Shown: positions 16,440 through 63,781 of the stretch, one piece after another
Numbering within the stretch: the stretch's first letter is position 1
Layout: every line of letters begins with the position of its first letter
Source of the DNA: Panorpa germanica
Lineage: Eukaryota; Arthropoda; Insecta; Mecoptera; Panorpidae
Assembly: GCA_963678705.1 (NCBI GenBank)
Contig: OY783216.1
Span: forward strand, 14,179,818-14,243,817
Direction: 5' to 3'
Length of the DNA: 64,000 bases
The notes under the pieces: model-generated
The model's database searches: none
Told to the model about the DNA's origin: nothing
What the model saw: the letters and a program-made list of their open reading frames with translations, nothing else
Translations under genes and position numbers: made by a program

Positions 16440-19076
16440 GTCAAGTCTTCCGGCTTGGTCCTCTTCAATCTGCGCAGATTCTCTCTGTTATTAAGCAGCT
16501 GCAGACTTTCTACATTCTTGTGGTTCTGCAGTCGCAGTAGATGTTTGCTTGCTGCCTTTCTGACTTCTTCGTCTGCGGTGGGCATCTTTAGATCACCGCA
16601 TAAATTGTCATTCCGTATGTACCAGGGCGCATTTGTAATTCTCCGTAGTACTTTGTTTTGAAAAGTTTAGATTTTTGTTAAATTTGTTTTCTTAGTACAA
16701 CTTCAAAGTTTGTATACCATAAGTCCATATGGGTTTCAGTATTTGCTTATACAATAACAGTTTGTTGTGCACTGTAAGCTGAGAATGTTTTCCTATAAGC
16801 CAGTGCATTTTCCTGAATTTATTTTTAAGCTGCTCTCTTTTTATCTTAACATGCTCCTTCCACTTGAGTTTCGTGTCAAGCGTCATGCCAAGATATTTCG
16901 CTGTGTTGGAATAGGGTATTTTTTGGCTGTTGATAGTAACTGTGAGAGGAGTAGTAACTCGATATGTAAAGTTGATGTGCGTGGATTTGGCTTCGTTCAG
17001 CTTAATTCGCCATTTCTTTGTCCATTTGCAGACCTCGTCTAGTGAATGCTGTAGTTTTTTGGTAACCTCTTCCTCATTTTTCCCAACAACCATTATAGCT
17101 GTGTCGTCTGCGAATGTGGCTATGCGAATGTGGTAATAAGTACAGAACTGGACCAAGGACGCTGCCTTGCTGAACTCCTGCTTTTATCTGTTTCATATCT
17201 GAGTACTCATCGTCCACTTTCACTCTAAAGTGTCTACATTCGAGATAAGATTTAAGAATATGGTACCACTCACCAGGTAAATCTTTTTTTAGTTTGTAAA
17301 ATAATCCTTGATGCCATACCTTGTCAAATGCCTGTGCCACATCAAGAAACACGCTTGAACATAGTTGTTGTGTTTTCAGTGCTTTTTCAATAATATTTGT
17401 AATCCGATGGACTTGTGCAATGGTCGTGTATTTACTTCTAAATCCGTATTAATGGTCAGGGATTAGATTTCTTGCAGATATTATTGGCTTCAGTCTCTTC
17501 AGCAGTAGCTTCTCGAATATTTTTGATAATACAAGTGATAATGAAATTGGCCAATAACTTGTAATCTCATTCTTAGGTTTACCGGGTTTAGGTAACATTA
17601 TCACTTCAGCTACTTTCTATTGACTAGTAATATATAGTAGTTTGATAGCTGCATTAAAATGGTGTAGGAGCTTTCTCAATGCTATATCAGGTAGTTCCTT
17701 TATAACCTTTCCTGTTATAAGGTCAAATCCTGTGGCCTTTTTAGCGTTCAAGTCGCTCTTCTTTAGTTCTTTAGTTCCTTAAGAGTGACTGGAAGAATTT
17801 TTTGGATGTCCATTCTTCTGCTGCATCTGATTTCTTCCTCAGTAGTCTGTCGTGGATAAGGTTTAAATATCTTTTTTAAGAGATCAGCGAATAAGTCGGC
17901 TTTTTGTTTATTGTTGACCATCCAAGATCCGTCTCCTTTTTTGATAGGTGGGTTCTGATTCTTCGGTCTCTTTATGGCTTTTGCTGCTTTCCACAGTGTA
18001 TACTCTGTGTCTTTTTCTGAAGAGAGTCCGCTCAGGTACAAACTGAAGCTGTCATTCTTGAATTCTTTCAGCAGCTCTTTTAACTTGTTTACTAATGAAT
18101 TTAGTGTGGTTTTGTCCTGTGGTGCTCTAGTTATTTGATACGTTCTCCTAGCTCTCCGTTTTTTAATTACTAGTTCTCTTATCTCCTGTGGAAACTTCAC
18201 ATCAAGATTTCCGTTACTTTTCACTACCGGAGTATTTCTCCACGCTGCGTTTTAGATTTCTTTCAGTAACAAGTCGATATCGTCTTCTAGTTGTTTCGAT
18301 GTTTTTAGCAGTGTTTGTAGGTTTATTCTTAGCTCAAGATCTTTACGGAATCTTTCCCAGTCGGTTCTATTATTAGTAAGGCTTGGTACTGCACTTTTTA
18401 TTATAACTGAGCTGCTAATGGTGAGTATAATTGGAGTTTGATCCGACGATATTGTTTCATCACTAACAATGTGCATATAGTTCCTCGACAGTCCTTTGAT
18501 AATAAAGAAGTCAATCAGGTCTGGAATTTTATCACAATCTGTTGGCCAGTTCGTTTGCATTCCTGTGGATAAGAAGTCGCACTTTTGTTCGCATCCAGCC
18601 TGGTGGAGATTCTTTCCTTTGGCCGTGGTTAATTGAGAGCCCCAGAAAGTATATTTGGCGTTGAGCTCTCCACCAATAATAAATTTGTTGCCTAATCTTT
18701 TGGACAGGTTTGCGTAGTTTTCTTTTTTTAAGTTATATCTCGGTGGACAATATATGGCTGACATTTTGAACCTTTTATTTTGTATATGTTCTGACACTAT
18801 CGTCACTTGCATTTCATCTGTTTCGATGTTTACTTCAGCGTTATGTTTGATTCTTTCATTAATTATTATGGCGGTTCCTCCCCTCGCTTTATTTGCCAGA
18901 TGAATTGACTTGTATATGTTAAAGTTATTAAGTTTAATATACGACTCTCGTGTAAAATGTGTATCCGACACAAGGCATATATCAATTTTCTGTTAGCGCA
19001 TAAATAGCTCTAGTTCATGAATGCGTCCTTGTAATCCGTTTACATTCCAAGCAGCTATTGTTACCACGTTATTCAT
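16440..19076 (-). pseudogene. Jockey ORF2: AP endonuclease plus reverse transcriptase, broken
   Basis: The start ATG is at 19076 and the product opens with TIAAWNVNGLQGRIHELEL, the first AP-endonuclease motif. A stop follows about 28 codons in. Pieces then run SDTHFTRESY, FIIGGELNAKYTFWGS (GGDxNAK normally; Asp replaced by Glu), PDLIDFF and SSDQTP (SDH normally; His replaced by Gln). The reverse transcriptase follows: TGFDLITGKVIKELP, VFLDVAQAFDKVWHQG, GVQQGSVLGP and ATFADDTAIMV at about 17110, then YSNTAKYLGM and LYKQILKPIWTYGI. A C-terminal tail continues to about 16440. At least four frame breaks (near 18240, 17760, 17400 and 17150) and the two changed endonuclease residues make it a pseudogene. 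Confidence 0.85.
19069..19076 (-). other. ORF1 stop / ORF2 start overlap (ATGAATAA)
   Basis: On the minus strand the ORF1 stop TAA and the ORF2 ATG overlap within ATGAATAA. This fits ORF2 being translated by termination-reinitiation, as described for some other insect LINEs. That mechanism is inferred here; only the overlap is seen. Confidence 0.6.
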
Positions 19077-20433
19077 TTCTATTTCTTTGTCGCATTGTTT
19101 TCAATTCAGTTTCTAAACTCTGAATTTTTTCAAATATATGTTTGTTGACAATTTGTTGTACATTCATGCTGTTTAAAATCAAGTTAAGCATTTCTTCAAT
19201 TGTTGATATTTCTTCTCCTCCGCTGAAAATTTTGCTATATAGTTTTCTTGGCATTTCGTTGCTTATGCTAGGAACGGGATAATTGTCCTTTTCTTGCGTA
19301 TGTCTGGGTTGTGTATGTTGCTTCTGCTTTAAAGATTGTCTCTTCTATTTCGAAGTTCTATTGCCACTACACATCCTCTGGTGCTAGCTGGATGATCTCC
19401 TTTACAGTTGACGCCTATGGGCGTTGTATTTTTGGTAACTGTGCAGTTCAGGGTATAATGTTTGCCAGCGCACCTAACACATCTCGGATCTTTCTTGCAA
19501 TAGCTTTGTGTATGGTTATATTCCTGACATCTCTTGCATTGTGGAATTAACCGAGTATTTTTACGTATTGGCTCTATTTTAACAATAAAGTTAAGTATGG
19601 TTCTAATGGCGTAAATTTTTTCTATGCTTTCCTTGTTGTCAAAGGTAAGCATGAAAAGTGGTAGTCCTTGCTTTGTAGTAACTTTTTCATTATTTTCCTG
19701 GATCCTTGTATCTTTTTTAGTGATATTTACTGCATCCAACACGTTTAGTCCTTTAGCTTTGAGATTTTCAAGGATGTCATCTTTTTCACATGAAGGATGT
19801 AATCCTTTAGCCATAACCTTGATTGATCTATCATTCGTGTCTTTATATGTGTGCCACTGAATTTTTGCCTAATTCAATTTATGCGCTAACGCTCTGTACG
19901 CATTGGGATCAGGCGTATTAATTTTCCATGCGTTATTACTCAGTGCCGTTACCTTGCATTCTTGATCGGTTGTATTTTTAAGATTTCGTAGAGTATCTTA
20001 TATTCTTTTATACCCCCTACATTAATAGGTGGCAAACGAACACTTGTTTTAATTGGTTTCTCATTTCGTTGTTGATCAATTTCAGTATCGTTTTTAGCTT
20101 GTGCTTGGTGATGTATTTGGTTTGCGTTTTTTGGATTTTTCTCTTTTTTACGATCTAGTCGGTCTCCCTATTTAGATCTTCTTTATCTGTCACATATTTA
20201 TCAGTTTCAGTTTGACTACTTGTTTTGTAATCAGCCCGACTGCTTTCCCTTTATTCTAATTGGCGTATCCGCACTTCCAATTGTTCGACTTTTTCAAGTA
20301 GTTTTGTTTTTTCTGCTCTTTCCATTTTCAGTGCTGTATATAACTGTTTCTCTTTTTCGGTATTTAAACCATTGTTTTCTTCTTGATAGGTAATAGTTGT
20401 CATTAGATGTAATGACTGATTTTCTAATTCCAT
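19069..20433 (-). pseudogene. Jockey ORF1: gag-like protein with CCHC zinc knuckles, broken
   Basis: From 20433 the N-terminal part is a Lys/Glu/Leu-rich likely coiled coil (EKEKQLYTALKMERAEKTK). After frameshifts the central domain (19814-19329) contains LFMLTFDNKESIEKIY, then CKRCQEYNHTQSYC, CVRCAGKHYTLNC and NCKGDHPASTRGC. These are three CCHC-type knuckles, the third missing its first Cys. The C-terminal piece (19254-19069) is another helical stretch ending in RQRNRNE. Such proteins bind element RNA and form the retrotransposition particle. The final codons overlap the ORF2 start. Confidence 0.8.
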
Positions 20434-31563: not shown

Positions 31564-32948
31564 ATGGAAGGTGATGTGAACCCTGGAGGAGGGCACTATA
31601 GTGATCCTCCAAAAAACAATATGCCATCCGCCAAGGACGATAATAGTAAAACCGGTAATATGAATAAATATAACAGTAATAATAGATACAGCACATACAA
31701 AGTCATGATACAACCACAACAAGGACAACAAAATTTCTTTAGCTCACTTAAGCTAGCGGAAATAGTTTGCGCAATAACAAACAAAAATAATACAACAGAA
31801 ATCAAAAAAATTGGAAAAAATAGAGCTATAATACAATGTACAACAGCAGAAATAGCAAATAAGATTGTAAGTGATCCAATATTAAAACAAAATAAATTTG
31901 ATGCATACATACCATACTTCTGGACCACAAAACAGCCATTATTAAACAAGTTGATTTAGACTGCACTGAGGAAACATTCATAAATAACATCGAATCGAGC
32001 AATTTTAAAATTACAAAAGTCCAAAGACTTAACAGAAAAGTAGTCACGGATAATGGTATTAAATACGAACCATCGATGACTATAAAATTATATTTTGAAG
32101 GTATGTATTTACCAGAGTATGTTTATTTATGGAGAGTACGCAGAGCTGTTGAACCATATATACAACCAACTGTACAATGCTATAAATGTTTAAAATATGG
32201 ACATAACTCTGGTAAATGCCGTTCCCCAATATCTAAATGTCGAACATGTGGAAGTACCGAACATACAGTATCAACATGCACAGCTACAACTGCAAGGTGC
32301 ACAAATTGTACAGGCAACCACCAAGCAACAGACAAAGAATGCCCCGAAAGATTAATACAAAACAAAATCAAAAAAGTAATGGCAGATTATAATTTAAGTT
32401 ACTATGAGGCACGCGGCGAAGTAGATAGAAGAGAAAACACTGACCATCTGTTTTCAGTTCGCACTCAAAATAGGTTCGATCTACTTCAAAACTATAATGA
32501 GATCTTTCCACATATGACAAACTCAACAGAGAAAGATAATTCAATTCCTGTATACAAGCCACACCCATTAACAAGACATGGCAATAAAAAATCAAAAAAC
32601 ATTAATCCTCCAACATTCAAACCTCAAAATAAAATATCAAATCTTCCATCAACATCTAACATTCAACAAAACAAAAGAAAACGCATAACCAGCAAAGAGT
32701 CAGCAGAATTTTTAGGAGATGATGACTTTTTAACAAACATCTTAAATAATGAAAAGGAACTACAGGCTTTAACAGAAACTAAAAAAACAACAAATCTTAA
32801 AAATTCTAAAACAATTAAAACTAGTAACAACACAGAAATAAATAGTCAGCCTGAGCCCTCGTGCTCAAAAAATAATAAAGAAACAAATATAACAATAGAT
32901 GACAATGAAAATATTAAAAATAGATTACGCAAATTACCAAAAACATAA
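31564..32948 (+). CDS. LINE ORF1: gag-like RNA-binding protein (one frameshift)
   Basis: The ATG at 31564 (MEGDVNPGGGHYSDPP) is preferred over an upstream GTG. The N-terminal 130 residues are hydrophilic, then a fold-like domain (YKVMIQP, IKKIGKNRAIIQC). The frame shifts at about 31928-31931, where ACCACA is followed by four A residues, and continues with TAIIKQVDLDCTEE to the next domain. Three zinc knuckles follow: CYKCLKYGHNSGKC, CRTCGSTEHTVSTC and CTNCTGNHQATDKEC. The C-terminal tail of about 170 residues is Asn/Lys/Ser-rich and probably disordered, ending at 32948. The protein should coat element RNA. ORF2 starts 75 bp downstream. The single frameshift is the only defect. Confidence 0.85.
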
Positions 32949-33023
32949 AATAAACAAGTGCTAAAACAAACTATTCAAATAGATTACTCAGAAATAATAT
33001 AATATAAATTTATTAATAATTCA

Positions 33024-36000
33024 ATGCTCCCGTCAAAATTAAATTTAATTCAGTGGAATCTAAACGGCTTTTTTAGACGTTTAGAAAATTTCAAAAGACT
33101 TACAGTAGATTACAACCCTATTATAATCTGTTTGCAAGAAACAAATTTTAAGACTAAGCAAACACCGAACATTAAGAAATACAATATATTCCGAAAAGAT
33201 CGACTAACGGAACACGCCAGTGGTAGAGTGGCCACACTGGTTAGAGAGGATTTTTTTTCGGAATATATAAATATACAATCCAACTTGGAAGTAATCGTGG
33301 TCAGAGTACATGTAACACAAAAAATTACTATTTGCAACTTATACTTACCTAACAGTCAAAACATAATTTTATCAGATATTGAAAACATATTAACTCAATT
33401 ACCTCCACCCTTCATATTACTTGGAGATTTTAATGCACATAACAGACTATGGGGCAATGTCACGGACAATAGAATACGAATAATAGAAAGATTATTGGAC
33501 AATAACAATTTAATACTTTTAAATGACGGCCAACACACACACTTTAATTTTTCTTTTCAAAACACATCCGCAATTGATCTTACTTTATGTCAACCGCAAA
33601 TAGCATCAAAACTAGAATGGTCAGTCCTACCAGATTTATATGGAAGTGATCATTTTCCGATTCAACTCCAAATCTTAAACAATACAATAGAAATGAACTG
33701 GTCAGGACTAAAATGGAACATCTCTAAAGCGGATTGTAATCTATATGTTGAAGAAATAATCAATAATAACATAACAGTTAATAAAGATGACCACATAGAT
33801 GTGATAACACAATCTATTAACTCCAAGATATTAACAGCTGCAAATAACTCAATTCCAAAAAAGAAAATTGGCCCACACAAACCAGCTATACCTTGGTGGA
33901 ATGAAACATGTGCTAATGCGGTAAGAATGAAAAAAAAACAGCTTTTAACAGATATAAACGCCACAAAACTATAGAACTTTTTGTAGAATTCAAAAGATTA
34001 AGAGCACTAGCACAAAAAACCATGAAGCAAGCAAGGAAACAATCATGGGAACAGTTTATATACTCCATAAATTCACAAACAAGTATAAAAGAAGTATGGA
34101 ATAAAATAAAATCAATAAAAGGAAATCAGCGAAAACTCAATATTTCTGCTTTAAAAATGTCATCAAACATAATTACATCACAACAAGAAATAGTAGATTT
34201 ATTGGGTAAAAATTTCTATCTTAACTTCAGCACTTCAAAATATTCAACACAATTTCAACAACACATGGCAGGAAAAACATATACAGAAATAAACTTATCA
34301 TCTGACAATACTGAAACTTATAACACTCCAATTACTTTAGATGAACTAAAATCAGCACTCCATAATTGTAAACTATCTAGTCCAGGGCCAGACAACATCC
34401 ATAACTACTTTATAAAAAATCTACCTGATGAAACCAAAAAAACTATCCTAAAATTCTTTAATCATATCTGGTTAAACGACTTATTTCCATCAGAATGGCA
34501 AAACGCAATTATATTACCAATTTTAAAACCCGGAAAAGATGTAACTGATATCAATAGCTACAGACCTATATCTTTAACTAACACCTTGTGCAAATTACTA
34601 GAAAAAATCATTAATGAAAGACTCATTTATACCCTAGAAACACAAAATCTGTTAGAACCTAGACAAAGTGGCTTTCGTAAGCATCATTCTACACTAGATC
34701 AAATAGTTAATTTGGAAACAGAAATACTCAATAGCTTTGCCAATAACCGGAAAACTATAGCAATTTTCTTAGACATTGACAAAAGCTTACGATCGAACAT
34801 GGAGAAACAACATATTAAAAGCATTAGAAATATGGAACATAAAGGGTCATCTAGCCTACTTCGTTAAAAATTTAATGAAAACAAGAAAATTCAGTGTGAA
34901 TTTAAACAACAATAAATCACAAGAATTCGTACAAGAAAATAGTATTCCTCAAGGTTCAGTTCTTAGTGTAACACTATTTCTAATCTCAATAAACAATATA
35001 GTCAATAACATTAAAAACCCCGTAAAAGCAGGCATCTATGCTGATGACTTAGTTATTTACTGCAGCAACAAGAATATAGAAATAGTTCAAAAAAAACTTC
35101 AATCAGCCTTAAACTGCCTAGAAGACTGGTCTAATAAAACAGGATATACATTTTCTACCAACAAAACTAAATGTATTCTTTTTAAGAAATCACCAAGGCA
35201 TATTTCTCCTCCAAGACTGACAATATACAATGAAGAGCTTGCATATACACGCCAAATATCTTATTTGGGTATGATTTTTGATGAAAAATTATCCTGGGTT
35301 AATCATATAAAAAATTTAAAGACAAAATGTAGCACTGTCATAAACATAATGAAAGTCATATCATACAATAATTGGGGTAGTGACCAGAAAACACTAATGC
35401 ATATTTTTCAAACAATGATCCGATCTAAAATAGACTACGGTGGAATTATATATCAAACTGCAAATAAAAACATTTTAAAACTCATTGACAGCATTTATAA
35501 TGCAGGTTTAAGAATAGTCACTGGTGCATTTAGAACATCTCCTGTAAAGAGCCTGTATGCCATATGTGGAGAACCACCGCCTTCAATTAGACGAGACCAA
35601 CTATCTCTAAATTATTATGCATCAGTCATTTCGAATCCTACAAACATTAATTTCAGAATTACAATAGCTCCACAATATGTCTCACTATACCATAGAAACT
35701 CAAAACTGAAAAAACCACTTCTAATCAGACTAAAAAATCTCAAGGACAAACATTCTTTATCTGACATAAGAACAATTCCAATAATATTTAATAGCATTGC
35801 ACCATGGATCATAGGATTACCATCTATAAACTTAACACTGTTAAAAATGGCTAAAAGTAATACTAATTCAACCATTTACAGATCGGCACTAAATAGTATT
35901 TTGGAAAATTACCAAGATTTCATTAAAATTTATACAGATGGTACCAAATTACTGAATGAAACAGCTTGCGCCTATATAATTGAAGATACAATTGGAAAAA

Positions 36001-36698
36001 TTAAACTAAATACAATCAACAGTGTTTTTACGTCTGAATTATATGCTATAAAAGAAAGTTTACAAGAAATCACATCAACAAACAACCAAAGAAATGTATT
36101 AATTCTATCTGACTCTCTGAGTGCCCTATTGGCCATAGAAACACTATATACCAACCACCCAATAATTCAAACCATTCACCGTCTCATTCACAACCTCCAC
36201 ATCAAGCAAATTAAAACTCAATTTTTATGGATTCCATCTCACACCGGTATCACACGAAATGAACAAGTTGATAATTACGCTAAAGAAGCAATTTATTCAG
36301 GACGCATTCCAGAAGAAACAACAATTACATGTTCAGATCTAAAGAACAAAATAAAAAATATAATAAATTGTTCATGGCAAAAAGAATGGAGTGAAGAAAG
36401 TGATAACAAATTAAGAGAAGTAAAACCATCAATTTGCAAACAAGAATTACCAGACGGAATAAATAGAAGGCTGGAAGTAATAATATGTAGAATCATGATA
36501 GGACATACAAATTATACTCATACTTACTTATTCAAAAAAGAACCACAACCAATATGCGGACAATGCAACAACCCATTAACAGTAAAGCATATTATTTTCC
36601 ACTGCTCAAGGTACTCGTCGATAAGACAGGAATGTAATATGCCGCAAGATTATAAACTGATATATGAAAACAAAGAAAATTTGAAAAACCTTATTTAA
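33024..36698 (+). CDS. LINE ORF2: AP endonuclease, reverse transcriptase, RNase H (two frameshifts)
   Basis: The start is ATG 33024. The endonuclease domain shows IQWNLNGFF, CLQETNF, LLGDFNAHNRLWG and YGSDHFPI, so all key residues are present. The frame breaks once in an A-run at 33930-33938, then continues through a linker to the reverse transcriptase: SSPGPDNIHNYF, SYRPISLTN, QSGFRKHHST, FLDI-KAYDRTW (the second break, at about 34788, is here), IPQGSVLSVTLF and GIYADDLVIYC at about 35037. RNase H shows IYTDGTK, SELYAI, LSDSLSA and IPSHTGI with NEQVDNYA, so the D-E-D-D set is intact. A terminal CGQCNNPLTVKHIIFHC zinc motif precedes the stop at 36698. The protein nicks target DNA and primes reverse transcription there. 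Confidence 0.9.
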
Positions 36699-57084: not shown

Positions 57085-57088
57085 TTAA

Positions 57089-57102
57089 GGATGTATGAGC
57101 AA
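57089..57102 (+). repeat. Left terminal inverted repeat
   Basis: GGATGTATGAGCAA, the exact reverse complement of 58444-58457. Confidence 0.9.
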
Positions 57103-57289
57103 AGGTGTGGCCTAATACTGAATTTTGAAGGGTGGGGATAGGCATGAGCATTTGCGGGGAGAAGGAAAGAAAATTATCACGTGACGTGATTTTACATTTG
57201 GCAACATAGCTTAAATTTTGTTTACTTTTTTCCATGTGACATTTGAATAAATTTAAATTTTTGACATTTAAAAATGGATATACCTCAAA

Positions 57290-57870
57290 AGCTTGACAAG
57301 AAAGGATTATTTTGTAAATCATGACTACCGTGAAAATTTCAGTTGGAGTTCGAAGGCCATGGAGCCAGACATGGCTGTTGAGATGCTTGTACCCAGTTAT
57401 AAAGACAGTATAAAGACTTTACAGTTGAACGTGTAAAAATTGGGGTGTTAATTGGAGAAGATGATTCAAGTAGCATTGCTAGATTACGAAGAGAAGCTGA
57501 TCATCAAATTATAAAATGGTCTGATTTGAATCATGCTACATTTGATTACATTTTGTTATCAGTCGCAGAGTGGATTAGACGTTGGGATTGAAAAGTTCAA
57601 TTGCGATTAATAATGCAGCAGCAGTTGTGTTGTTTGATTTAGAAACCACCGGTTTTTAAAAAGCCAGTGAAACAATTCAGATTGCAGCAAAATACAAAAC
57701 TACTCAGAATATAATGTTTACATTTTACCGACAAGAGGAATACCACCGAGTGCGTCTGCTGTTAATGATCTTACAACTAATGGAGGAAAATAATTTTTAC
57801 AATCTGCTAAAGTTGACACTGTGTCTATTAACTTGGCTGCAGAAGGGTTTTTATCCTTCATAAAATTAAC
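57290..57870 (+). pseudogene. Transposase-exonuclease (DEDD type) relic
   Basis: Across frames it reads NHDYRENFSWSSKAMEPDMA, VEML, then GEDDSSSIARLRREADHQII and KWSDLNHATFDYI. This resembles the 'N...(S/G)SS.AME.D..(V)' and 'GDDDSST...L' catalytic part of Mutator-like (PF20700-type) transposases. After a deletion it continues IAINNAAAVVLFDLETTGF (FDLETTG is motif I of DnaQ/TREX-like 3'-5' exonucleases), then ASETIQIAAKYKTTQ, and in another frame NVYILPTRGIPPSASAVND. Stops occur in both parts. A transposase fused to a DEDD exonuclease is something I recall from such elements in invertebrates; the fusion order is seen here directly. Confidence 0.6.
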
Positions 57871-58443
57871 AAAAATAAATTTTTGTTGAAATGTGTTATG
57901 TTAATAAATTATTAAAATGTTAATAAATATTTTAATTCTATTTAATTTTTGTACTTAATTTTTACTGTTACTACCACGTAATATTTATTTTGACAGCTCT
58001 AAATGAGGTTATATTTAAATTTGTATATACCGTTTTTGCCGCTGCCGTGCTGTGACGCCTATTATAGCAGTGCGACGTTGCCAAGTGTCAAATATGGCGA
58101 AAAATATTTTTTTAAATATCATAATTTGAATTTCATTTCTAATTATCTTTCCAGGATGAACGGTTACATAGTATTTTTAAAATATTGACGTGTGACGCAA
58201 ATATTCACCTTTCTAATGCATAGTTTTTTTTTATACCACACAATACAGAACATACTCATATTTATTGATTTATGATCACTTGTACCCATTTCTCCATAAG
58301 ACCAATGTTAATTATGTCAATTTTCAACAATTAATTTCTTTAAAATATGAACGGTTACCTACCCTGAAATTTTACCAGTAAATTCATTGACCATGAATCT
58401 ACACGTACAAAAATTTTGAGCCCTTAAATCAAAAATTATTTTC

Positions 58444-58457
58444 TTGCTCATACATCC
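58444..58457 (-). repeat. Right terminal inverted repeat
   Basis: TTGCTCATACATCC, the exact reverse complement of the left end, followed by TTAA. Confidence 0.9.
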
Positions 58458-58461
58458 TTAA

Positions 58462-59824
58462 AATATAATAATTGTACAAAAGCAGAGCTTCTAAAAGATT
58501 TTATTAAATAGATTTGTATATTATTATAGCACAATAATTCACTAATTAATAGCTAGTATCATAACATAATAATAAATCTTAATTACCACTCTATATTTCA
58601 CTTAAATACAAATATACATTTTTTCAGTCTTAAAAATATACAATCAACAAAATTACTTTTAAGGTGATCTTAGTGCCACCATAGTGTAAATAATTTCCGT
58701 ATCAATATTATATTATTTATTACTTTTTTCATGAATATAAAAAATAATTTTAAAACTTATGGATAATATTTCACAATAAATTTAAACAAAATTTCATTAT
58801 TAAGAATGTATAAACATTCAATTGACTACAAAAAATAAGGTATTCTAAATCGTTTAGACACACTTTATACCTCCGCTGATGTTTATAACTTGAGAACTTA
58901 GATCTTTTGGCTTTCGAATATTTGCGGTTGCCCATGTGCCGGAGAAGTGCTCAAGCTACGTTGTCAAATTTTACATCATGTTTTGAACAGCGGAAGTGTC
59001 AATTTTATTTGCAATTTCTTCGGAAACAAACTATTTTTATTTTTTTTTTTTACAGCTGATGTTTTCTGAACCATATTTAATTAAAATAATAATTTTCTCA
59101 GTTAAATACTTACATGAAATTTTTAATAAAATGCACAAGGTAATTAATCCTCATATAATTGGAAGTGAAATTTACATTTTCTTAAACTCAATATTTCCTT
59201 AAAAGTGTTGGAAACCTACCCTTATTTAGTTGTTTTTATTAATTATTGCCTATCATAGAACAAATTTACAAAGTTTTAGCAAGTTCTCTGTTTTTCTTTA
59301 CTTCAAGAGGATCTCCTTGACACTTATGAATTATTTGACGATTTTTTTTTAAATTTAAAGTACTAGCACAATTTTTATCCCCGCCAAAAAGTAACATCTG
59401 CAAGCTAACATACGATTATGTAATACCTATATCTTTGTCACATTTACTTAAGGCGATCGTCTCCTGACAAAGAAACTTATTATAAAGAATACGTTTTAAG
59501 AAGTGAAGAAGTGGAAGATTGGTGCGTTGGCGTGGCTAAATAGTCTTATCTCAGGGATAAAAACATTAAAATAAGTGAACCATAAAATTGTACACTAAGA
59601 ATAAATAAAAACATAACAATTTAATTAAATTATATTATATTTTAATTTGAAAAAAACTAATAATATTTAATATAACAATTTTTAATAATTTTAATATTCT
59701 AAAATTAAGATATATACATAAACGTACAAGGAAAAAATATTTTTCTTAAAAAAAATATATGTACTTTTATAACCTATTAATTCGATAAAAATTAAACATA
59801 AAACTGTGTTTTCTTGATTATAAA
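58462..59824. other. AT-rich spacer, no gene recognised
   Basis: About 1.36 kb. One short minus-strand stretch (58965-58855) reads LEHFSGTWATANIRKPKDL and ends GGIKCV plus a stop, preceded by an AG; it could be an isolated last exon but has no partner. The rest is low complexity. Confidence 0.4.
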
Positions 59825-62495
59825 TTATCCATTACGATCTGGATTTTGAATTGGCATATTTCGAAGGTATCGAGAATCTACTATCTCGGGAAGTAAGCAT
59901 TCGTTATAAAAAAATAATAATTTGGATTTCATTTCTCCTTTGTAAAATCTTTCATTTCTTTCAATTCTCTCATAGAGATTATTGTTTGGTTTTTCAACAG
60001 GAGTCAAAAACACAAACAAACAATATTTGCGTTCTGTAACTTGTAGCTGCCCTTGTATTTGATAGTAAAAATCATGATTTTTTTTTAATTTAAACAAGCC
60101 ATTCTTTGATTCAATTGCCGCAATTGGTGTTAACATACTTGCGGAAGCTGGACATTTAATTTCTATTAAACCATCTTCTTCTATTAGTCCATTAGGACTA
60201 GCTGCAAGAAATGAATAGTTCTTGTAAATAAATAAACCTGCATCTGCTATTTCTAAATTTAGTAACTTCGATACATCACTTTTAGCAACAGGTTCTTTTT
60301 CTATACCATATCTTGTTGCTTTACTTCCAGAGAATGTGCTAAAGAAGGTTTTTTACTAAATTTGCACAAGATGTCTTCTTTCTCATTTTGCAAACTTTAC
60401 CAAATGAAAATGATGTTAGTCGTTTGTATCTTTCTTGCTTCCACAAAGGATTGCGACTTTGTTTTTTTGTATTTTTTTCAAGCCTAATTTTCTCCAATAA
60501 GGTTTAACAAAGTGTATTTTTAAATTGTTCTTGTTTGTTTTGATAATAAGCGGCCTCCATATTAGGTTGTTCCTGCAAGTTATAATCTTCATCAACATGA
60601 CTAACGTTTTTCTAAGGCCTTTTTTTTGCGAATATTAAGAGTCTTCGTTTTATATTTTTATTTTCTTTAAATGTTCTAGTTGAATATTCCTTCGCATACT
60701 TTCCTGGACTATTTCCATCAAGTAGTGCCTTATGCAATGACCTTCGTACCTCTTTCCTTCTGTTGTAAGATGAAACAACAGATCTGCGAAATGTATGATA
60801 TATTCTTTGTCCTCCTACGTATTTTGCAACAATAGAATTAAAATATTCGGCGACGTTATTATTTACAATATGAATTAGACTGTTTGCCTGATTAATAACA
60901 AAATTCAATATATAATTTATATCGGTCCATAGACCACACGTTTGCAATTTAGGAACAATATTTGTTTCCAATTCCACCGTTGCTTTTCTCTTGGTGCAGA
61001 AATAATCTTTACAATTCAAGCGTTCTCCACATACATGGTATAGACTATTTTTGAAATCAGCTTTCATGCCAGCTAACCGTTTACTTAAGGGTGCGTTTTG
61101 TTTATTTCGATATTTCACAGACCCTTGTACTGCAGATACAAGGCTTGCAATAGTTTGTTTTAGCTTCACTTTAAGTATACGTGGCACAACTACTGACCTT
61201 TTCGTTATTTGCTTGGAAATTTCACAAAGTCTTCGCCGATAATTCCTACAAATATGGTTGATGCAATTAACTTTTTCCACTAGTAGGTTGAGACCATAGC
61301 GCAAGGTTTTAATTATTCGGTCCATAACACTACTGTCGTTGTCACCAATTTACCTATTTTATTTTACTTCATGCATTTCTACACTACGACTAAAACTTTC
61401 TGCAATAATATCAGCCTCCATAGAGTTAGCAGATTTATCCCAATTTTTAAAACAAACGATGATTGATTTCAGATTGTCTATTTTCTGCTAAGTTTCTAAC
61501 ACAAATGCAGCAATACGAATTTCGTGCACTGATAAATAAAACTTTCTTGGTTCTGAATCCAATAATGCATGCTACACCTGAAAATTAATTGTTGCTCGTC
61601 TTATAAGATCTCTTCGCCCAAGCTCCATCAGCGACCACCGTTGTTAGAGGGTTGCCATCTGCGTCAACACTACCTTCAGATACTACTAGTTTAGCTTCTT
61701 CTTAACCAGCTTCCTTCATAGATTCTTAAGCTACGTCTTTAACTGCGGTTTGAATTTGCACTTGCAATTTCTGATACTTCTTTTTTACATACACCAGGTA
61801 TATTATTAATTGCACTTCGCTCCGCTTACTGCTCATATCCTTGATCTGTGCATATTGTACTGCGACCATGTCCAAATTTATGTTACAAGATTTGTTATTA
61901 TTTTCATTACATAATGCATCAGTTTTATTACAGTTTTTAGATTTGAAATAAACTCACTGTAATATCCACTTCTAACTTCTTTTACTAAGTTCATATGGGT
62001 AAAGTCACAAGCAAACGGTTTATGATCATTTATTTCTTATTGTTCAAATAAATAATTGATATTAAAAATACGTCTGCCTTCAACTAAATAATTATTTTGC
62101 GGTTCTTCACTGTTTGCACTATGCGATTAATATAAAAATTCCTCAGTGTCATCAATTTCGCTAAAATCTTCAGATTCTGCAATTTCTATTTCTGATTGAT
62201 CTTGCGGTTCTTCACAATCCACTGTAGGTAATGAATATAAATATTGATCAGTGCCGTCATAACCTACAGGTTCTTTAATATCCAAATCTGATTGATTTGG
62301 AATTGTTGAATTAGCAATGCAAAGGAGACTTTGACGAGAAGCATTATTTGCAGTTCGACTTGCATCTTCAGGATATATAATATCATTGGAACTATTTGAA
62401 ACTGTAAGATAACCGTTATCTTTGGTTTCAGCAATTGCTATTGAAAGAATTGAATCTGTGGCTTTTAAATCTGGCCTGGAACAAATTACAGACAT
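59825..62495 (-). pseudogene. Mutator-like transposase fused to a YqaJ-type nuclease, broken
   Basis: N-terminal acidic region (62495-62127), then GRRIFNINYLFEQ and NDHKPFACDF (about 62080-62000), VDADGNPLTTVVADGAW followed by KRSYKT (about 61680-61600), and WDKSANSMEADIIAESF. The open stretch 61325-60612 carries RIIKTLRYGLNLLVEKVNCI, KTL, and NNNVAEYFNSIVAKYVGG, the conserved Asn/Glu block of the transposase. GDNDSSV precedes it. The C-terminal part is a YqaJ-like nuclease (about 60310-59825): AGLFIYKNYSFLAASPNGLI, IEIKCPAS, HDFYYQIQGQLQVTERKYC. The nuclease's usual PDG is PNG, losing an expected catalytic Asp. At least six breaks show it is dead. No inverted ends found. Confidence 0.7.
60612..61325 (-). 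pseudogene. Longest open piece of the transposase-YqaJ pseudogene
   Basis: 237 codons, uninterrupted, starting MDRIIKTLRYGLN just after GDNDSSV. It contains VEKVNCINHICRNYRRRL, a basic middle, cysteine-rich YHVCGERLNCKDYFC (a possible zinc-binding site), then NIVPKLQTCGLW, IHIVNNNVAEYFNSIVAK and YVGGQRI, and a basic C-terminus (NIKRRLLIFAKKRP). It represents the transposase catalytic second half. It is not a complete gene: upstream and downstream domains continue in other frames. Confidence 0.7.
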
Positions 62496-62518
62496 CGTTA
62501 TGGTATATATTATAACCT

Positions 62519-62572
62519 GGTATATATATATATACGTACATGAATTATAAAAATTTATATATATATATATAT
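62519..62572. repeat. (TA)n tracts at a Helitron junction
   Basis: Two (TA)n runs (62519-62534 and 62556-62572), separated by about 20 bp, directly adjoin the 3' terminus of the Helitron. Insertion into a (TA)n target fits the A/T preference of Helitrons. Confidence 0.85.
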
Positions 62573-63163: not shown

Positions 63164-63781
63164 TTATGTTATCCTTTTAAGTATCGACGCGTGAATCACA
63201 TTGCTCATCAGATTTTTTATCACCAAACGCGTTCCATTGCACAGTTTTGGTTGGTTTAAATTTCTAAGCATGATGACTACCGAGCCAACCTTAAGTTTTA
63301 AATTGTGCGGTGGTAAACCAGGCACATCCAAGGAGAAGCTGTAGTCGATGGTGCAATCATATAGAAACGCTGCTCGATTCAAATCAATACTTGAACCATT
63401 TCTTCTTGCACTTCGAAGATTATTCCTCTGTTCATCTGTACGATAAGCTCGACGATTTCTCGTTTCTAACCTAGCCGTTTCACGGGCTACCTCTCTTTGC
63501 TCTTGTGTGTGAGAAGCACGAATTAAGGCCCTTCTTTGCTTCATACTAACGCGGCGCTCTTCTCGTGCAATTTCTCGTTCTTCATCAGATAATTGACTCG
63601 CGATATTCCGTTGCCTAATTGCATTACGGCTCTGCTTTGAAAGATTAGATCTTCTAGGACGCGGCATTGTTATTAATATTAATACTAATTGTGCACTCGC
63701 ATAAAACCACAAAAAACCTCTTTCGAGACATAGACAATAGCTCAAAGAGTATATAACCACTACATATGAATAGCTTATCAA
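63164..63781 (-). pseudogene. Helitron N-terminus joined to helicase fragment by internal deletion
   Basis: A 205-codon ORF. The Helitron protein probably starts at the internal MPRPRRSNLSKQSRNAIRQ (about 63667). A very basic Arg/Glu/Gln repeat region with LSDEEREIAREERRVSMKQR and TQEQREVARETARLETRNR follows, then AAFLYDCTIDYS, the usual N-terminal end before the cysteine motif. Directly after that comes VPGLPPHNLKLKVGSVVIML and NQPKLCNGTRLVIKNL from the helicase. So roughly the whole HUH nuclease and the front of the helicase were removed in frame. The ORF stops at 63164, just before the helicase tail in another frame. Confidence 0.75.

Follow-up and report, generated by a model that had tools for sequence, protein, structure and literature searches.

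According to PMC9587614 (Mob DNA 2022), Kolobok DNA transposons duplicate a TTAA target, have RR...YY termini and encode a DDD/E transposase with a C/DxxH signature located between its second D and the last E. The same paper distinguishes KolobokD, the lineage with a DEDDh nuclease, which occurs in molluscs, arthropods and cnidarians, from KolobokE, the lineage with a lambda-exonuclease-like nuclease. A domain with related parts is known from vertebrates, namely the one encoded by exon 9 of PML-I (PXL), which PMC12934764 describes as EXO-like and SAM-like parts with the active site missing and no nuclease activity, and for which it gives Exuperantia (Exu) as the only structural homologue of an arrangement similar to that of the human domain. 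Since the fusion of a transposase with an exonuclease has already been published as KolobokD (PMC9587614), it is not new, and it was fair of the preliminary description to call it rarely discussed, the name KolobokD being scarce in the open-licence PMC literature. In this article, I will discuss a 1,377-bp feature at positions 57085-58461 of a 64,000-nucleotide stretch of Panorpa germanica DNA (the window), which I consider, with a probability of roughly 93%, to be a non-autonomous DNA transposon of the Kolobok superfamily, KolobokD lineage. As a non-autonomous KolobokD derivative the window copy is itself ordinary; it is its family that leads to a question about PML, the human tumour suppressor.

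The forward strand reads TTAAGGATGTATGAGCAA at 57085-57102, and 58444-58461 holds the exact reverse complement of this sequence, giving inverted ends that are perfect over 18 bp, of which four are the TTAA target duplication (57085-57088 on the left and 58458-58461 on the right) and 14 the terminal inverted repeat (GGATGTATGAGCAA, opening with 5'-GG, at 57089-57102 on the forward strand and its counterpart, closing with CC-3', at 58444-58457 on the reverse strand), so that the termini read 5'-GG...CC-3', that is RR...YY. The perfect 14-bp ends and the two TTAA duplications claimed for this element are thus real, the ends being exact reverse complements and the flanks repeating over 4 bases, the one length among those from 4 to 12 that fits. 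With up to three mismatches allowed, the window holds two matches to the 18-bp end against a shuffle mean of 0.12 (n=100), with none of the 100 shuffles holding two, and the 464-Mb assembly used for all searches of the species' own genome holds 126 exact sites of TTAA plus inverted repeat (55 forward, 71 reverse) against no exact match for the reversed-pattern control; a chance origin of the paired ends is therefore excluded.

The TTAA duplication, the GG...CC ends and the DxxH signature agree in pointing to Kolobok and bear out the earlier reading of the TTAA as Kolobok-like rather than Mutator behaviour, while the KolobokD assignment comes through relatives in the same genome, in which a DEDDh exonuclease lies downstream of the transposase (the broken copy L086 and the open frames L069 and L082). 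The label "Mutator-like" is simply the Pfam name of the transposase domain PF20700 and would, taken at its word, suggest an ordinary Mutator-like element (MULE); however, such an element is very improbable here, the flanks sharing the 4 bases TTAA and no repeat of 5-12 bases, where Mutator duplicates 8-11 bp, the ends being short (14 bp) with GG...CC termini, and the nuclease-bearing relatives fitting the descriptions of KolobokD and KolobokE outlined above. Termini of piggyBac elements start with CCY. Least credible of all is a piggyBac-type element that acquired transposase and exonuclease fragments by chance, which would have the TTAA target and the short ends in its favour, but the ends start with RR (GG), a difference between Kolobok and piggyBac according to PMC9587614, and a nearly identical end stands upstream of the parent gene.

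The coding sequence inside this Kolobok element survives as forward-strand pieces in three frames. What is left of the first coding exon (MDIPQKLDKKGLFCK, 57274..57318), recognized by comparison with 2.4-kb copies of the same family, reaches the point of a 1,010-bp deletion (57317/57318) and is followed by a transposase fragment in the second frame (NFSWSSKAMEPDMAVEML..., 57335..57433), resembling a stretch in the parent copies L083 and L086, and by another in the first frame (IGVLIGEDDSS...WSDLNHAT, 57427..57588) that includes the second catalytic D and the DxxH and ends at a junction also present in the 2.4-kb copies. Comparison with the parent copies identifies a DEDDh exonuclease fragment with motif I and an in-frame stop in the third frame (VLFDLETTGF*KASETIQIAAKY, 57606..57695), and together with the frames it identifies the continuation in the second frame (YNVYILPTRGIPPSASAVNDLTTNGGK*FLQ..., 57710..57865), stops thus standing within and behind the exonuclease motif. 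The relic keeps the DxxH as WSDLNH and is missing the first catalytic D and the E, the remaining part of the exonuclease and PML_C. When three relic pieces were submitted to Pfam, the transposase piece (57427..57588) matched PF20700 at 20.5 bits (E 2.7e-4, below the 26.5-bit cut-off), one exonuclease piece matched RNase_H_2 below cut-off (E 0.014) and the second exonuclease piece had no Pfam match; against the PDB, the relic exonuclease piece gave chance-level matches (best E 0.43). With the pieces weak or below cut-off on their own, the identification rested on relatives, and it is through L086, L083 and L069 that the transposase-then-exonuclease relic proposed for the decayed body is secured, in the form of broken fragments.

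Twenty convergent pairs of exact ends, picked among the sites listed and not counting the window's own pair, were fetched from the genome; 14 of these span 2,381-2,428 bp and the others 429, 759, 776, 1,811, 5,156 and 5,810 bp. The 14 copies of this 2.4-kb family have a mean identity of 98.1% (97.0-99.9), and the window copy is 96.8-98.3% identical to them outside gaps; values of 91-93% from a MAFFT alignment were dropped, the window deletion being misplaced in that alignment. Relative to the copy L035, the window copy (1,377 bp) is short of 1,010 bp internally. A 12-bp microhomology at this deletion, taken from overlapping BLAST blocks, was also dropped, given that base-by-base comparison leaves at most 1 bp. 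The internal junction after DxxH, ending WD*, and the stop NGGK* were each found by search pattern in 11 of 15 sequences including the window copy (a pattern miss in the other four does not prove a difference), and no stop-free frame of 100 codons is present in any of the 14 family copies. Since the defects of the window copy are largely common to the 2.4-kb family, it probably spread in trans; on the most economical view, the family had already decayed before it began to multiply. Three of the copies (L037, L038 and L039, at C7:1653441-1675167) form an array that repeats every 9,157 bp and has common flanks; this is a segmental triplication that includes the transposon, so that there are at most 12 independent insertions among the 14 copies. 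The genome search pattern included TTAA, and its presence at the 20 fetched pairs is for this reason not independent evidence; L087, a parent copy retrieved by protein, has TTAA at its one visible end. Two of the longer pairs are composite, with several overlapping family copies nested in 5.2 kb at L046 (C5:11101690-11107845), which adjoins the parent copy L086, while L045, a copy of 5.8 kb between the same ends, has other ORFs on the opposite strand in its extra 3.4 kb. This extra stretch may be a nested insertion of hAT type, which it resembles.

Searching the genome with PF20700 gave at least 118 matches, and two broken parent copies were found by protein, L087/L083 (C1) and L086 (C5). L087 has TTAA and the left end with one mismatch, and in the stretches examined the right end was not seen in L087/L083 and neither end in L086. 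The end of L087 agrees with the 2.4-kb family at 92.8% over 166 aligned columns, the 3' side of L086 agrees with it at 93.5% over 260 columns, and L086 agrees with L083 at 98.3% over 1,317 columns. L087/L083 contains the N-terminal transposase and then a frame of 419 codons that extends as far as the exonuclease, which in L083 gives way to a retroelement frame bearing an integrase, and L086 has, in this order, the Kolobok transposase, pieces of the DEDDh exonuclease and a 194-codon piece with PML_C. In Pfam, PF20700 scores 120.9 bits in L086 and 119 bits in L083, the exonuclease pieces of L086 reach at best 24 bits (Exu_RNase_H_like, E 6.5e-5, below cut-off), and the C-terminal piece (L086:244-825) matches PML_C at 35.4 bits and, weakly and over overlapping residues, the Exuperantia SAM-like domain SAM_Exu (E 0.0097). 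By eye, L083 and L086 hold a candidate (CMRCERGHDKNDHDC) for the CCHC zinc finger that KolobokD has behind the first catalytic D. A hand sum over pieces of the two copies puts the parent at about 3.9 kb; in coding and intron sequence, the 2.4-kb family and the parent copies are only 82-87% alike, and a closer helper may consequently exist or be gone.

Open reading frames are found in relatives, with L069 possessing one open 741-aa frame (PF20700 172.4, RNase_T 53.9 and PML_C 31.6 bits) and L082 a 670-codon frame (PF20700 147.6 and RNase_T 35.3 bits) without PML_C. At up to three mismatches, the window's 18-bp end is absent from L069, L081 and L082 to L086, and the 6.2 kb of L069 examined showed no convincing TTAA inverted ends; as their stretches are without the window's ends, L069 and L082 are other families of the same genome. 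The expectation in the preliminary description that longer copies would encode both transposase and exonuclease is supported: the two broken parents carry the fusion, although among the 20 exact-end pairs there was no open fusion gene and no intact parent. In 45 relatives, with the catalytic-type positions assigned by the author, the exonuclease residues are D588 (42/45), E590 (44/45), D681 (45/45), H745 (44/45) and D750 (43/45), and those of the transposase are D328 (43/45) and H331 (42/45) of the DxxH and E446 (44/45). In the match list for a KolobokD gene of this genome, most of the best matches that carry a species name are from Hymenoptera, and no KolobokD stretch was conserved enough to serve as a probe for viral contigs.

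The parent DDE transposase would be expected to bind the 14-bp ends, excise the element and paste it into TTAA, and if intact ends are enough for movement, coding-dead copies could be spread in trans. The 3'-5' exonuclease fused to the transposase probably acts on 3' ends, trimming them either on the excised element or in the donor gap, and 3'-end degradation by the KolobokD exonuclease is likewise suggested in PMC9587614. The PML_C/SAM-like bundle, to judge from PXL and Exu, probably contributes to the grip on nucleic acid.

KolobokD proteins end in both domains of PML-I exon 9 and in the same order, exonuclease-like and then PML_C, an order that is seen in these proteins and not in the window relic. 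By my tally, 57 of the 120 proteins listed in the KolobokD search have the PML_C label, and proteins with transposase and PML_C labels jointly come from wasps, ants, sawflies, a beetle, a thrips, a damselfly and a mussel; sequence profiles place the KolobokD exonuclease much nearer to Plex9 than to TREX1. For human PML the query was a putative sequence of residues 608-882, which agrees with three checkpoints printed in PMC12934764. Pfam assigns residues 170-245 of this stretch to PML_C (96 bits) and none of it to an exonuclease family. Among 190 proteins gathered by KolobokD and module queries, and partly also by Plex9 stretches, the PML query matches 73 at E 0.001, where 20 shuffles match none, with the fish protein P0173 as the best match (E 4.4e-11) and P0097 as the best one with a transposase domain (E 3.4e-9); its main stretch scores 34.6 bits against a 17-protein profile, compared with 2.1 for the best of 500 shuffles. 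Counting against the PML link, the last 110 residues alone match 0 of the 190 proteins. The structural match lists are filled by the exonuclease part and not by the PML_C bundle, and no human PML structure is among the structural matches listed. No link between PML and transposons is made in the accessible parts of PMC9587614, PMC12934764, PMC11602975, PMC10309189 and PMC12206365, the words "PML" and "promyelocytic" being absent from the main text of the first and the word stem "transpos" from the second, and within the open-licence PMC papers searched there was neither a KolobokD-PML link nor any joint occurrence of promyelocytic leukemia and Kolobok.

It is about an even bet, in my estimation, that the PML-I tail (exon 9, exonuclease-like plus PML_C/SAM-like) and fish Plex9 arose by domestication of the C-terminal half of a KolobokD transposase-exonuclease, in which case Exuperantia may be a second, older domestication. 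One argument for this direction is the occurrence of proteins with both transposase and PML_C labels in the insects and the mussel named above. PML and Plex9 are not known outside jawed vertebrates. The alternative, a serious contender that I nevertheless lean slightly against, is that exonuclease plus PML_C belonged to an older animal host gene, which Kolobok captured and jawed vertebrates kept independently, PML then not being transposon-derived. On its side are a 73-row exonuclease tree, in which 63 non-vertebrate rows (proteins without a transposase domain included) stand on one side against Plex9 and the outgroup with a support of 44, a value that neither shows nor rejects the split, so that Plex9 may be their sister group, and the open base of the larger 84-row exonuclease tree. 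However, of 29 exonuclease-matching proteins that have no listed transposase domain and at least 40 residues upstream, 22 carry the KolobokD transposase-exonuclease linker (E<0.01) and hence look like transposon fragments, not host genes; PML_C proteins lacking this linker are P0135, P0176 and, weakly, P0167. The larger tree was made from 174 exonuclease domains thinned to 88, from which 4 short rows were dropped, and the smaller one by removing 15 of the 88 rows, and in the latter the 63 non-vertebrate rows together with Plex9 are separated from three outgroup rows with a support of 98. In the 84-row tree, the branches leading to PML-I and Exu are very long, the outgroup rows (for which "bacterial" is my own label, no organism being named) are not on one side of a branch, and some rows lacking organism names (e.g., P0150, P0152, P0155 and P0181) were counted as "arthropod". 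The exonuclease trees do not settle the direction, transposon to host versus host to transposon, and a transposon origin of the PML tail is plausible from the sequences compared.

If the PML-I tail does derive from KolobokD, a transposon nuclease would have become a host factor restraining transposons, the origin of PML exon 9 would be explained, and PML would gain catalytically intact relatives for comparison. It would also join the domestications of a different Kolobok protein (KolX to P2X7 and Nanor) put forward in PMC9587614.

The window has other residents as well, including long ORFs at 32076-36698 (+) and 16692-19814 (-), zinc-knuckle-, endonuclease- and reverse-transcriptase-like, which by eye appear to belong to non-LTR retrotransposons, and an ORF at 63164-63781 (-) near a repeat-like stretch at about 62590. 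The end of the latter ORF may represent the tail of a PIF1-type helicase from a Helitron, which it resembles. At 59562-62527 (-), 1.1 kb from the KolobokD relic, is a KolobokE-type relic that is 90.2% like L051 over 3,030 columns, and an open frame of 922 codons in L051 combines PF20700 at 295 bits with YqaJ at 62.1 bits, the KolobokE layout.

Compared with the described systems, then, the window copy has in common with KolobokD the Kolobok transposase with a DEDDh exonuclease, the TTAA and the RR...YY ends, but differs in being a repeatedly deleted, non-autonomous derivative. KolobokE likewise joins a Kolobok transposase to a nuclease, yet one of lambda-exonuclease-like type (YqaJ in L051 and L085) instead of DEDDh. 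Plex9 and PML-I exon 9 (PXL) share the DEDDh fold with KolobokD, whereas they are vertebrate host proteins without a transposase, and the four fish proteins taken for Plex9 (P0149, P0171, P0173 and P0174) have no PML_C label. Exuperantia of flies, although its profile score is much lower (64-66 bits versus 162-192), resembles KolobokD in combining EXO-like with SAM-like domains and is the next structural match after Plex9.1.
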